Assembly (NCBI RefSeq): GCF_024609325.1
Contig: NZ_JANHMQ010000001.1
Location: forward strand, 682,001 to 746,000
Origin: Geothrix fuzhouensis
Lineage (GTDB): Bacteria; Acidobacteriota; Holophagae; Holophagales; Holophagaceae
DNA length: 64,000 nt
Reading direction: 5' to 3'
Shown: piece by piece, positions 45,209-50,058 of the stretch
How the letters are laid out: every line of letters starts with the position of its first letter
Position numbering within the stretch: position 1 is the first letter of the stretch
Notes under the pieces: model-generated
Seen by the model: only the letters and a program-made list of their open reading frames with translations
Database searches by the model: none
What the model was told of the DNA's origin: nothing
Translations under genes and position numbers: made by a program

Positions 45209-45243
45209 TGAAGTGGGCATCGCGAAGAAAGCTGGGGGGGAGG

Positions 45244-45571
45244 GACTCAAACTGCGCCTGGCTCCCCAGTCGCCGGTCCCGCTTCGGCGATCAGAGAAGG
45301 AGTGCCTTCCCACTCGGGCGAGATTCGAACTGCGCCTGGCTTTGCCGGCCGCCGGTCCCGCTTCGGCGTGCCATCTGGGCACGCCTCGGGCGGTCCCACT
45401 CGACCCTAGATCCTCGCGACGCATGCCTCGCGAGGGCAGGTTCGAACGGGGCACCGACCCACCCCACCAGGATTCGAACTGCGTCTGGCTTCGCCAGCCG
45501 CCGGTCCCGCTTCGGCGCGACATCTAGTCGCGCCTCGGGCGGTCCCACTCGCAGGTTCGAATCCTCTTTAT
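45244..45571. repeat. tandem structured repeats with T-loop-like motifs near tRNA-Thr
   Basis: Two 81-base copies (45322-45402 and 45471-45551) agree at about 73 of 81 positions. A third degenerate copy covers about 45244-45316. Each starts with a GATTCGAAC-like T-loop motif and carries hairpins; the third stem reads GCGTGCC/GGCACGC in one copy and GCGCGAC/GTCGCGC in the other, so pairing is kept by compensatory changes. A further hairpin (CCTCGCGA/TCGCGAGG) lies between copies near 45411-45434. The region is downstream of the tRNA-Thr gene on the minus strand. No protein gene is credible here. Confidence 0.8.
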
Positions 45572-45572
45572 T

Positions 45573-45618
45573 CCAGTGAAAAAGGGCCCCCCGCACGCGG
45601 GGAGCCCTTTTTCACTGG
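45573..45618 (-). terminator. terminator immediately after tRNA-Thr
   Basis: CCAGTGAAAAAGGGC (45573-45587) pairs exactly with 45604-45618, enclosing a further GC stem. On the minus strand the GC-rich core is followed by five T, as in an intrinsic terminator. It abuts the 3' end of the tRNA gene; the A-run on the other arm makes it work in either direction. Confidence 0.9.
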
Positions 45619-45691
45619 AGCCAACTACAGGATTCGAACCTGCGACCTGCTGATTACGAATCAGCTGCTCTACCAGCTGAGCTAAGTTGGC
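45619..45691 (-). tRNA. tRNA-Thr (anticodon CGT)
   Basis: On the minus strand a 73-base cloverleaf folds: acceptor GCCAACT/AGTTGGC with discriminator T, D-arm GCTC...GAGC, anticodon stem GCTGA/TCAGC with loop TTCGTAA (anticodon CGT), and T-arm GCAGG/CCTGT with TTCGAAT. It reads ACG codons. CCA is not encoded. It lies between a leftward peptidase gene and the repeat array. Confidence 0.96.
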
Positions 45692-45731: not shown

Positions 45732-47873
45732 CTAGTGGGCGAAGCCGGTGGGCAGCTTCATGTGGAGGTTCTTGACGAGGAAGGCCCACTGGTCGGCACG
45801 TTCGGCGATCTGCTTGGCGGTGGGCTTGCCGGCGCCATGGCCGGCGTTGGTCTCGATGCGGGTGAGCACCGGGGCCGGACCGGCCTGGTCGGCCTGCAGG
45901 GTGGCGATGAATTTGTGGCTGTGGGCGGGCACCACGCGGTCGTCATGATCGCCGGTGGTCACGAGGGTGGGCGGATATTTCACGCCCGGTTTCAGGTTGT
46001 GCAACGGCGAATACTTGATGAGGTTCGCAAATCCCTCCGCGGTGTCGCTGGACATGTAGTCGCTCTTCCACATCCAGCCGATAGTGAAGGTGTGGTACCG
46101 CAGCATGTCCATGACGCCCACGGCGGGCAACGTCGCGCCGAAAAGGTCCGGACGCTGGGTCATGCAGGCGCCCACCAGCAGGCCTCCGTTGGATCCGCCG
46201 TGGATGGCGAGCCTGGGGGTGCTGGTGTACTTTTCCTTGATGAGCCACTCGGCGGCGGCGATGAAATCGTCAAAGACGTTCTGCTTCTTCTCGCGCTTGC
46301 CGGCTTCCCACCAGTCCTTGCCGTATTCGCTGCCGCCCCGCAGGCAGGCCACGGCATAGACGCCCCCCATCTCCATCCAGACCTGGGACACAGGCGAGTA
46401 GCCGGGAGACAGGGCGATGTTGAAGCCGCCGTAGGCGTAGAGCAGTGTGGGATTGGTGCCGTCCAGCTTCAGCCCCTTCTTGTAGGCCAGGAACATGGGC
46501 ACCTTGGTGCCGTCCTTGCTGGGGTAGAAGACCTCCTTGACCTCGAACTCAGTGGGCTTGATGTCGACCTTGGGCTGGCGGAACACGCTGCTGGTTCCCG
46601 TTTTCAGGTCGTAACGGTAGAGGGTGGGCGGCTGGTTGTAGGACGTGAAGGCGTAGAAGGTCTCGGCGTCCTGCCGGCGGCCATTGAACCCGCTGAGGTT
46701 GCCCAGGCCTTCGGGCTTGATCTCCTTGAGGAGCCGGCCTTTCAGGTCATAGAGCTTTACGACGTTGAGGGCGTCCACCTTCCAGGTGACCGCGAAAGTA
46801 TCACCGAAGAGGTCCACCTCGGCCAGGACGTCGCGGCCCTTCCCTTCGGGGATGATGTCCCGCCAAGCCTTCGGGCTCGGGTCCTTCAGTTCCACGGCCA
46901 CGATCCGGTGGCGAGGGGCGCCCGCATCGGTGTGCACGTAGAAGGTGTCGCCATCATTGCCGATGATGGAATAGGAGCCGTCGTACTTGTCGAACAGGGG
47001 CACCACGGGGCTGCCGGTTTGACGGAGGTTCTTCAGGAAGACACGGTTCTTCCGCTCGGTGCCCTGGTGTTGGGAGATCACCAGCCAGTGGCCGTCGTCG
47101 GTGACCTGGGCGCCGAAGCCCCAGTCGGGCTGGTCCGGCCGCTTGTAGACCACCGCGTCCTTTTCCACCGGATCGCCCAGCTTGTGGAAGAAGAGCTTCT
47201 GGTTCTTGTAGACGGCGGTGAGGGCCTTGCCGGCCTCCACCTTGGGGTAGTCGGTGTAGTAGAAGCCGCTGCCGTCCTTGGCCCAGCTATTGACGCCCAT
47301 GCGGCCCGCGGGGAAGGCATCCGGCAGATCCACGCCGGTGGCCACGTTGCGGACCTTCCAGGTGCTCACGTCGGAGCCCCCCTTGGACAGGCTGTAGGCC
47401 ACGAAGGTGCCATCCTCACTGAAGCGCATGCCCCCCAGCGCCACGGTGCCGTCCTTGCTTAGGGCGTTGGGATCGAAGAGCACGCGGCCCTTGTGCTCCA
47501 GACGCTCGGTCAGGTAGATCACTGCCTGATTCTGGAGGCCGGTGTTGTAGGAATAGACGTAGTGCTTGCCGTGCTTGCTGGGAGCTCCGAATTTCTCGTA
47601 GTTCCACAGGCGGGTCATCCGGGCTTCGATGGCCTTCCGCTCGGGAATCCCCGCGAGGTAGGCCTGGGTCACCTGGTTTTCGGACGCCACCCACGCAGCG
47701 GTCTCGGCGGAGCGGTCATCCTCCAGCCAGCGGTAGGGATCGGCCACCTTGGTGCCGAAGTAGTTGTCCACCACGTCCGCCTTGCGGGTCGGGGGGTAGG
47801 TCAGCGGCGCCTGGGCCACCAGCGCCGATGCGGCGAGGGCCAGAACGCAGGATCGGGACATGGCGAGGGGCAT
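45732..47873 (-). CDS. prolyl oligopeptidase (S9), exported; copy 1
   Basis: 713-residue serine peptidase with an N-terminal signal peptide (hydrophobic SCVLALAASALVAQA). After TYPPTRKADVVDNYFG comes the seven-bladed propeller (about 75-430), then the hydrolase domain. The catalytic Ser lies in HGGSNGGLL, Asp in TTGDHDDRVVP and His in NAGHGAGK. It should cleave after Pro in short peptides, in the periplasm. AGGAGG seven bases before the ATG at 47873 sets the start. It is a close paralog of the upstream gene. Confidence 0.93.
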   Translation of the reverse strand: MPLAMSRSCVLALAASALVAQAPLTYPPTRKADVVDNYFGTKVADPYRWLEDDRSAETAAWVASENQVTQAYLAGIPERKAIEARMTRLWNYEKFGAPSKHGKHYVYSYNTGLQNQAVIYLTERLEHKGRVLFDPNALSKDGTVALGGMRFSEDGTFVAYSLSKGGSDVSTWKVRNVATGVDLPDAFPAGRMGVNSWAKDGSGFYYTDYPKVEAGKALTAVYKNQKLFFHKLGDPVEKDAVVYKRPDQPDWGFGAQVTDDGHWLVISQHQGTERKNRVFLKNLRQTGSPVVPLFDKYDGSYSIIGNDGDTFYVHTDAGAPRHRIVAVELKDPSPKAWRDIIPEGKGRDVLAEVDLFGDTFAVTWKVDALNVVKLYDLKGRLLKEIKPEGLGNLSGFNGRRQDAETFYAFTSYNQPPTLYRYDLKTGTSSVFRQPKVDIKPTEFEVKEVFYPSKDGTKVPMFLAYKKGLKLDGTNPTLLYAYGGFNIALSPGYSPVSQVWMEMGGVYAVACLRGGSEYGKDWWEAGKREKKQNVFDDFIAAAEWLIKEKYTSTPRLAIHGGSNGGLLVGACMTQRPDLFGATLPAVGVMDMLRYHTFTIGWMWKSDYMSSDTAEGFANLIKYSPLHNLKPGVKYPPTLVTTGDHDDRVVPAHSHKFIATLQADQAGPAPVLTRIETNAGHGAGKPTAKQIAERADQWAFLVKNLHMKLPTGFAH

Positions 47874-47943
47874 AAATGGGCCTCCTGAAGGGCATTTGGG
47901 GGTGCCCTCCAGGATACCTCGTAACAAAAGGCTGGAACAATCC

Positions 47944-50058
47944 CTAGTGCAGCTTCATCCCGAGGTTCTTCACCAGGAAGGCGAGGACATCAGCCCGCTC
48001 CTCGATCTGCTTGGCGGTGGGCTTGCCCGCGCCGTGGCCCGCGCTGGTTTCGATGCGGGTGAGGATGGGCGCCGGGCCCGCCTGAGCAGCCTGGAGGGTG
48101 GCCGTGAACTTGTGGCTGTGGGCAGGTACCACTCGGTCGTCATGGTCGCCGGTGGTGATGAGTGTCGGCGGGTACTTCGTGCCGGGCTTGATGGTGTGCA
48201 GGGGCGAGTACTTCATGAGGGTTTGGAAGCCTTCTTTGGTCTCGCTGCTGCCGTAGTCGCTCTTCCAGCCCCAGCCCAGGGTGAACTTGTGGAAGCGCAG
48301 CATGTCCATGACGCCCACCTCGGGTACGGCAGCGCCAAAGAGGTCCGGCCGCTGGGTGAGGCAGGCGCCCACCAGCAGGCCCCCGTTGCTGCCGCCGTTG
48401 ATGGCCAGTTTCGGCGTGGAGGTGATCTTGTGGGCGATAAGCCACTCGGCCGCCCCGATGAAGTCATCGAAGACGTTCTGCTTCTTCTCTTTGCGGCCCG
48501 CGTCGTACCACTCCAGGCCGTACTCGCCGCCGCCACGAAGGTTCGGCATGGCGTAAACGCCGCCCATCTCGAGCCAAACCATTCGGGAAACCGAGAAGGC
48601 CGGGGTCAGCGAGATGTTGAAGCCTCCGTAGCCGTAGAGCAGGGTCGGGTTCAGGCCATCAAGCTTGATCCCCTTCTTGTGCACCAGGAACATGGGTACC
48701 TTCGTGCCGTCCTTGCTGGGGTAGAAGACCTGCTCCACCTCATAGTCCGCGGGCTTGAAGGCCACTTTCGGTGTGCGGAAGATGGCGCTCTTCCGCGTCT
48801 TAAGGTCCAGGCGGTAGATGGTTCCGGGATAGGCGAAGCTGCCGAAGGTGTAGAAGGTTTCCAGGTCCTCGCGTCGCCCACTGAACCCACCGGCCGTGCC
48901 CAGCGCAGGCAGGGCCAGATCACCTGTCTTCTTGCCCTTGAGATCATAGAACTCAACGGCGGAATGGGCATCGCGCATCCAGGTGGCAATAAAGCGGCCG
49001 CCCACCACGGACACGGCTTCCAGCACGTCCCTGCCCTTGGCCTGGGGGATGATCCCGGTCCACACCGCAGGGTCGGTCTGCCCTTTGCGGATGGCGACCA
49101 GGCGATTCCGGGGTGCCCCCTGGTTGGTGAGGACGAAAAAGGTGTCGCCCTCGTTATCCACCACGCTGTAACTGGCGTCCATGCGATCCAGGAAGGGCTC
49201 CACGGGGCTGCCAGGCTTGCTCAGATCCTTCAGGAACAAGCTGGACTCGGGGTTGGTGCCCTTGCCGCAAGTGATGACCAGCCAGCGGCCATTGTCGGTC
49301 ACGCTGCCGCCGATGTACCACTCCGGCTGGTCAGGGCGCTGGTAGATGAGCGTGTCCTCGGACTGGGCTGTGCCCAGCTTGTGGAAATAGAGCAAGTGGT
49401 GGTTGTTGACGCCCGTGAGCGCCCCACCCTCTTTGGGGGCCTCGTAGCGGCTGTAGAAGAAGCCGCTGCCATCCTTGAGCCAGGAGGCGCCGCTGGCCTT
49501 GGACCAGCGGATCTCGTCGGACAGGTCCTTCCCCGTGGCCACGTCCCGGACCTTCCAGGTCTGCCAATCCGAGCCGGCCACCGAGACGGCATAGGCCATG
49601 AGCCGCCCGTCCTCCGTGAAGCTCGCGCCGCTGAGGGCCACGGTGCCGTCCTTGCTCAAAGTGTTCGGATCGAGGAGCACCCGGCCTGCGGCCTTGGGAT
49701 CCTCCGTCACGAACAGCACGGACTGGTTCTGGAGACCGGTATTGTAGGAGTAGAAGTAGCGCTGGCCCCGTTTGAACGGCGCGCTGTACTTCTCGAAGTC
49801 CCAGAGACGGGTGATGCGTTCCCGGATCTTGGACCGCTCGGGGATCTGCTCCAGGTAGGCGAAAGTCACCTTGTTCTGGGCCTCTACCCAGGCCTTGGTC
49901 TCGGCCGAATTGTCGTCCTCCAGCCAGCGGTAGGGGTCGGCCACCTTGGTGCCAAAAAAGTCGTCCACCACGTCGGCCTTCCTGGTCGGGGGATAGGTCA
50001 AGGGGGTCTGCGCGGATAGGGCGGTCGTGATGGCAAGGGCCATGGAAAGAATCCTCAT
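47944..50058 (-). CDS. prolyl oligopeptidase (S9), exported; copy 2
   Basis: 704 residues with a signal peptide (about 1-18, ending LSA). It shares with copy 1 the N-terminal TYPPTRKADVVD, the propeller and the catalytic motifs GGSNGGLLVGA, GDHDDRVVP and SAGHGAGK. The two proteins look about 55-60% identical by eye and arose by tandem duplication. Copy 2 starts first on the minus strand and copy 1 follows after 70 bases. It is divergent from the PIN-PhoH gene. Confidence 0.93.
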   Translation of the reverse strand: MRILSMALAITTALSAQTPLTYPPTRKADVVDDFFGTKVADPYRWLEDDNSAETKAWVEAQNKVTFAYLEQIPERSKIRERITRLWDFEKYSAPFKRGQRYFYSYNTGLQNQSVLFVTEDPKAAGRVLLDPNTLSKDGTVALSGASFTEDGRLMAYAVSVAGSDWQTWKVRDVATGKDLSDEIRWSKASGASWLKDGSGFFYSRYEAPKEGGALTGVNNHHLLYFHKLGTAQSEDTLIYQRPDQPEWYIGGSVTDNGRWLVITCGKGTNPESSLFLKDLSKPGSPVEPFLDRMDASYSVVDNEGDTFFVLTNQGAPRNRLVAIRKGQTDPAVWTGIIPQAKGRDVLEAVSVVGGRFIATWMRDAHSAVEFYDLKGKKTGDLALPALGTAGGFSGRREDLETFYTFGSFAYPGTIYRLDLKTRKSAIFRTPKVAFKPADYEVEQVFYPSKDGTKVPMFLVHKKGIKLDGLNPTLLYGYGGFNISLTPAFSVSRMVWLEMGGVYAMPNLRGGGEYGLEWYDAGRKEKKQNVFDDFIGAAEWLIAHKITSTPKLAINGGSNGGLLVGACLTQRPDLFGAAVPEVGVMDMLRFHKFTLGWGWKSDYGSSETKEGFQTLMKYSPLHTIKPGTKYPPTLITTGDHDDRVVPAHSHKFTATLQAAQAGPAPILTRIETSAGHGAGKPTAKQIEERADVLAFLVKNLGMKLH

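Follow-up and report, generated by a model that had tools for sequence, protein, structure and literature searches.

Structured modules carrying antisense copies of the host tRNA tail follow tRNA genes in Holophagaceae: a candidate cis-acting switch on tRNA precursors

Bacterial tRNA genes are commonly viewed as simple units composed of a promoter, the tRNA and a terminator. One system in which such a gene is followed by repeats is rtT at the E. coli tyrT locus, a repeat of ~178 bp that lies in tandem after the tRNA gene and reproduces the 3' end of that tRNA in sense orientation; to our knowledge, rtT has neither an antisense copy matched to its host tRNA nor a conserved three-way junction. 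Other systems relevant here are attenuators and T-box leaders, in which a strand, an antistrand and an anti-antistrand compete for pairing, REP/BIME and MITE-like repeats, which are short, structured, intergenic and multi-copy, and the att sites of tRNA-integrating elements, in which the tRNA 3' end is duplicated downstream. The repeats found next to tRNA-Thr(CGT) of Geothrix fuzhouensis share features with all of these systems. They belong to a family of ~100-nt structured modules that lie on the tRNA strand and begin directly after the tRNA, and this family is assigned to no known one.

Like rtT, the modules come as tandem repeats immediately downstream of a tRNA gene, and every unit contains the 3' region of the tRNA again in sense orientation. 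Unlike rtT, they consist of ~80-150 nt units that are built around a conserved three-way junction and include an antisense copy matched to the host, their cores measure ~94-105 nt (Thr, Pro, His, Arg, fMet) rather than ~178 bp, and they follow at least 14 different tRNAs, apparently along with tmRNA, within one bacterial family. The likeness to rtT drawn in the initial annotation thus holds in part, for tandem repeats with a copy of the tRNA 3' end, but a search of eight module loci against Rfam gave no rtT match up to E=1 and no match to T-box or riboswitch models, with only tRNA passing; over the window, i.e., the whole 64-kb stretch analysed, tRNA was likewise the only family above its gathering score. 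In contrast to attenuators, whose competing layout they share, the modules have the mature tRNA itself as the first strand and lie downstream of the RNA to be controlled. In contrast to REP/BIME and MITE-like repeats, they are not dispersed, always occupy the tRNA strand and have ends that match the host tRNA, although the start of P1, GTGGGA, presumably resembles some REP heads. Finally, the modules share with att sites a downstream duplication of the tRNA 3' end in sense orientation, but they are 80-250 nt structured units with an antisense copy and a conserved core, without an integrase gene, and where real integrated elements are present the modules are found beyond attR, the element separating the tRNA from the module. 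A search of the open-access literature returned no paper on these modules.

The array extends from ~45238 to 45571 on the minus strand, which is also the strand of tRNA-Thr, so that the order on this strand is tRNA-Thr, a T-run hairpin (45572-45619) and then the array (Table 1). A within-genome search recovered the two repeat units described initially (81 nt, 90% identity, E 1.5e-25) and the degenerate third (88% over 47 nt, E 2.3e-9), all past the tRNA-Thr(CGT) terminator. Tandem Repeats Finder did not detect the units at tRNA-Thr, probably because their spacing is uneven (149 and 78-79 nt). The T-loop-like motif reported at the start of each unit is present as a sense copy (GTTCGAATCC, termed T'), but on the tRNA strand it stands at the end of the unit. 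Likewise, the further T-loop-like sequence reported at the end of the array exists (45549-45565) but is the opening of the array on the minus strand, AGGATTCGAACCTGCGA, a 17-nt perfect antisense (17/17) of the tRNA-Thr(CGT) T-arm. On the other side of the tRNA, also on the minus strand, lie two similar tandem ORFs (45732-47927 and 47944-50058) that look prolyl-oligopeptidase-like.

Table 1. Parts of the array and of its host tRNA-Thr(CGT), in window positions
Feature	Position	Strand	Basis
Host tRNA-Thr(CGT)	45616..45691	-	ARAGORN and Rfam RF00005, 72.6 bits
tRNA-Thr T-arm segment pairing with the anti-tail	45629..45645	-	100% complementary to 45549-45565
Hairpin including the tRNA CCA (CCAGTG...CACTGG), with terminator-like T-run	45572..45619	-	23-nt arms, 96% complementary
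Unit 1 anti-tail, antisense copy of the host T-arm	45549..45565	-	17/17 complementarity and host-match comparison
Unit 1 stem P1a (GG..CCGC/GCGG..CC), enclosing variable hairpin P1b (45514-45534)	45503..45546	-	Covariation
Unit 1 hairpin P2 (GCG.CTGGC-GAA-GCCAG.CGC)	45481..45501	-	Covariation
Unit 1 T', sense T-loop copy GTTCGAATCC, P0 partner of the anti-tail	45470..45479	-	Covariation
Unit 2 anti-tail (GTTCGAACCTGC)	45436..45447	-	Sequence
Unit 2 extra hairpin between anti-tail and core (CTCGCGA...TCGCGAG)	45413..45434	-	Sequence; relatives with similar insertions
Unit 2 core (P1, P2, T' at 45322-45330)	45317..45408	-	Covariance-model match, 72 bits
Degenerate unit 3, P1/P2 remnant and T' (GTTTGAGTCC, 45243-45252)	45238..45289	-	Within-genome sequence matches

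Each module folds as a three-way junction, in which the anti-tail and T' form the closing stem P0, and two hairpins, P1 and P2, are enclosed; P1 is composed of a short stem, P1a, topped by a variable 8-bp hairpin, P1b. The compensated stems of the first two units (GCGTGCC/GGCACGC versus GCGCGAC/GTCGCGC) are present as initially claimed, and the proposal that pairing is under selection is strongly supported by covariation across about 150 copies. Among 52 units, standard pairs fill 93.6% of pair cells, compared with 84.5% after shuffling and 27-38% when partners are slid, and 16 of the 32 pairs show changes on both sides. In 150 model-aligned units, whose alignment leans toward structure, the corresponding values are 93.8%, 80.8% and 30-36%, with both-side changes in 27/32 pairs; counted in total, changes on both sides number 623, compared with 191 after shuffling. 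G-U wobbles outnumber A-C mismatches by 164 to 59 when the tRNA-sense strand is read (P0 104:30, P1a 34:12), a bias that favours, without proving, an RNA of the tRNA strand as the folded molecule, given that the excess is strong in P0 and P1a only, falls to 17 versus 8 when counted by pair column and comes from related, non-independent sequences. P1b, by comparison, is nearly wobble-free, a pattern equally compatible with a palindrome in DNA whose perfection is maintained via template switching. In several loci (L317, L321, L329, L331, L269, L083) the tip of P1b is broken by other palindromic repeats (e.g., CTGACGGACAGCGC), in the manner of an insertion hot spot.

Several other readings of the modules were rejected. 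A protein-coding repeat comparable to the tpr frame in rtT was one of these, as core lengths differ by single bases (94, 96, 97, 98, 99, 100 nt) and no reading frame is therefore kept. A tRNA-like RNA, which had been suggested at the outset, is unsupported on either strand: T' lacks a T-stem and forms no T-arm, its predicted pairing being in P0, and opposite-strand ARAGORN calls (e.g., in L083) are an effect of the palindrome. The linker of L061 contains a possible hammerhead ribozyme motif (CTGATGAG...GAAA), which was discarded because other copies do not keep it. One unusual arrangement occurs in genome G009 (contig C40; L099, 560-960), where two head-to-head modules with mutually mirrored arms flank one terminator, with no tRNA within the 1.5-kb locus; this large palindrome may be genuine or may stem from faulty assembly.

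The modules are tied to tRNA genes throughout. The within-genome search identified three further clusters, each on the strand of its tRNA and located just past tRNA-Pro(CGG), tRNA-Pro(GGG) and tRNA-Pro(TGG), and a covariance model built from the 52 units gave 18 matches with E<0.01 in the Geothrix fuzhouensis genome, 18/18 of them in clusters just downstream of tRNAs. In related genomes, the tRNAs followed by clusters are Thr-CGT, all three of Pro, His, Arg-CCG, Arg-TCT and a tRNA with a CAT anticodon (initiator-like). Copies are numerous in relatives and their stems covary, so that neither outcome named as refuting in the initial annotation was observed. Modules always lie on the tRNA strand, and their sites are tRNA or tmRNA 3' ends only. 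The family is present in 44/47 Geothrix genomes and in 7 genomes from four other genera of Holophagaceae, and the core (GTGG...CCGG, P1a, P2) is conserved in all five genera. The model gave no match in two other families of the same class, and among 396 genomes of the phylum the modules are confined to Holophagaceae. Named records in which an exact pattern of the core occurs come from Geothrix species or from bins of Holophagaceae. Two records from apparently more distant lineages were dismissed as carriers, one labelled Gemmatimonadaceae (L219), in which the context is not array-like, and one labelled Deltaproteobacteria (L236), which matches a Holophagaceae genome (G076).

The most telling property of the modules is that each opens with an antisense copy of its own host's T-arm, sometimes of the entire 3' tail, and ends with a sense copy of the T-loop. 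This correspondence was seen for Thr, Pro, His, Arg, fMet, Val, Asn and other hosts. When the stretch preceding the core was placed from the core alone, blind to the host, and compared with the host tRNA afterwards, the first anti-tail matched the expected antisense at 15.2 of 18 positions; when hosts were reassigned at random, the match averaged 13.4 and in 5000 such shuffles never exceeded 14.0. The anti-tail also tracks species-level differences in the T-arm at Pro-TGG, His and Arg-TCT; for instance, at Arg-TCT a T-arm with CGCTGG is accompanied by an anti-tail with CCAGCG and one with CGTTGG by CCAACG, and Pro-TGG behaves likewise. T' copies follow the host T-loop in the same way, reading TTCGAA for Thr and Pro, TTCGAG for His and Arg-TCT, and TTCAAA for fMet and Asn, and in other genera, where Asn-GTT and Thr-TGT are hosts, both anti-tail and T' match those tRNAs. 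An anti-tail lies within 120 nt downstream of 14/46 tRNAs of the Geothrix fuzhouensis genome, compared with 0/41 in a module-free genome of the same family and 0/21 in another family. Additionally, in 69/96 tRNAs with an anti-tail or module, a set partly selected through its modules, CCA and the next 8 bases pair at 10 or 11 of 11 positions with the distal side of the terminator, versus 4/57 tRNAs without.

A second module type follows Cys, Glu-CTC, Ser-TGA, Val-GAC and Phe tRNAs, with the same layout, a different P1 and longer tail copies; some of these units duplicate the entire tRNA 3' end and terminator. An internal loop in P1, AGGTA/GT, is found in the Cys, Glu, Val, Ser and tmRNA modules, and its strict form occurs 5 times in the 1.12 Mb examined, all 54-77 nt past a tRNA or tmRNA (controls 0-2). 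The tmRNA gene apparently carries such a module too, a weaker case in which the anti-tail is placed unlike the others. In genome G000 (C3:39605-39995; L387, 1891-2091), the sequence past tmRNA runs from a CCA-including terminator hairpin through an AGGTA/GT P1 to what resembles a decayed anti-tail.

Since the tail, anti-tail and T' are laid out as in an attenuator, it is proposed that the module is a cis-acting, attenuator-like RNA switch acting on a read-through tRNA precursor, a reading held tentatively and at somewhat less than an even chance. Three strands would compete: the tRNA 3' tail (the T-arm, sometimes with the acceptor strand), the anti-tail, and T', which is made after P1 and P2. 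Pairing of the anti-tail with the tail would leave the tRNA unable to fold, held in a long hairpin that absorbs CCA and the terminator stem and would be a likely substrate for RNase III or decay. Pairing of the anti-tail with T' in P0 would instead leave the tRNA free. Which state wins could be decided by the speed of tRNA processing or binding, together with the folding of P1/P2 or a ligand or protein acting on them, and the tandem copies may have arisen by duplication at the tail copies. The two helices, T-arm:anti-tail and anti-tail:T', are mutually exclusive, and both are predicted and conserved. When the tRNA was folded together with the first unit at 35 loci, T-arm:anti-tail pairing appeared in 35/35 minimum-energy folds, with joint folds averaging -19.7 kcal/mol relative to the tRNA and trailer folded apart; such folds leave aside co-transcriptional folding and tRNA-binding proteins.

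The proposed switch would require transcription past the terminator. Most hosts have a strong terminator ahead of the anti-tail, and therefore little RNA may include the latter. Also speaking against the switch, some genomes do without the module at one tRNA or another, or have had it moved a long way off by an integrated element, and are nonetheless viable. At Arg-TCT, however, the antisense tail starts 0-3 nt past CCA in five genomes and extends over ~26-28 nt; the result is a single long hairpin tipped by CCA, with neither a terminator-like site nor an early T-run ahead of the array (terminator scan on one of the five genomes), so that the array should be co-transcribed there. About a third of the tRNA genes of this genome, and apparently tmRNA too, carry the conserved, folded antisense-tail module; if the switch operates, tRNA supply would be controlled gene by gene by the tRNA's own precursor. 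Such modules might then form a new class of RNA regulator, in which a downstream host-matched antisense unfolds its own tRNA or tmRNA, or marks it for decay, and which can be transferred to a new tRNA by adopting its tail; this broader suggestion is more speculative still than the switch. As several cultured species carry the module (Geothrix fermentans DSM 14018, G. terrae, G. oryzisoli, G. rubra, G. paludis), these ideas are directly testable.

The main rival is a non-autonomous mobile element specific to tRNA tails, which would insert at the T-loop and carry or copy the tail of its target, leaving the tRNA intact; it could be a selfish or a domesticated passenger, its structure being needed for mobilisation as single-stranded DNA or RNA. 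We consider this unlikely but worth serious attention, given that unit junctions fall within the T-loop, that some units (Cys, Glu, Val, Arg-CCG, Phe) contain a full copy of the tRNA 3' end with terminator, that the tRNA-Phe module is flanked by two different terminators, and that another genus has new hosts, one copy lying within a dense cluster of unusual tRNAs. This cluster (L290, 92-1213, in G069) is phage- or plasmid-like, and the module follows its tRNA-Pro. However, the Geothrix fuzhouensis genome has no confident match away from tRNA genes, and it and most carriers lack the reverse transcriptase domain RVT_1, which led to the rejection of spread driven by reverse transcriptase. Plasmids and phages gave no module match, and five pattern matches in viral contigs, none with a model match or a tRNA, are attributable to chance. 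Moreover, cores follow the tRNA locus and not recent jumps: grouped by locus they need 23 changes (shuffled mean 41, minimum 37), whereas grouped by genome they need 55 (shuffled 54), so that cores are inherited with the locus and not homogenised, and concerted evolution within genomes is ruled out. An antisense match to each new host would also be unexpected unless the target is copied. If such an element exists, it would adopt ends matching each new host tRNA, and we know of no described element that does so. Mobility and switching are compatible, since mobility can account for the origin of the modules and function for their retention.

An alternative to the switch that we rate as distinctly improbable is a mutational by-product, in which fold-back template switching at the terminator palindrome made the antisense tail, tandem duplication multiplied it, and palindrome-perfecting replication errors maintain the complementarity of the arms with no function. 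In line with this, tRNA tail, terminator and anti-tail form a single palindrome, P1b stems are exchanged wholesale and almost free of wobbles, and terminator stems vary yet remain perfectly paired up to CCA. Such errors would not predict a specific core kept in five genera, covariation of P1a and P2 through point changes, or confinement to one bacterial family when such tRNA terminators occur in all bacteria. Nor would they predict syntenic retention at tRNA-Pro(CGG), where, in a sample drawn regardless of module presence, the anti-tail is retained in 25/27 genomes with sufficient downstream sequence; across 29 orthologues of this locus, the module is alignable in 15-22, the next gene in ~23 and the intervening spacer in 6-11. 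The Pro-CGG locus of G056 was rejected as an empty site: its tRNA-Thr still has a matching anti-tail with a decayed core, and G056 therefore reads as a loss.

Least probable of all is that the palindromic T-arm copies act as DNA, with integrases that target tRNAs using them for binding, as decoys or for landing. Relatives do have integrated elements at several of the host tRNAs, but these join at the anticodon loop and not at the T-loop copies, and neither the covariation of the P1/P2 hairpins nor the wobble bias of the sense strand would be explained. Correspondingly, the early suggestion that the repeats mark recombination at the tRNA is upheld only insofar as integrative elements use several host tRNAs and displace the array. 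In several genomes such elements lie between the tRNA and the array, and the 3' half of the tRNA, from the anticodon loop onwards, abuts the array. Integrative-looking elements recurrently target tRNA-Thr(CGT) and other tRNAs at the anticodon loop (L070, L112, L122, L128 and the tRNA-Thr loci L270, L271, L275, L284, L285), and in G020 an integrated element has carried the array ~16.5 kb downstream.
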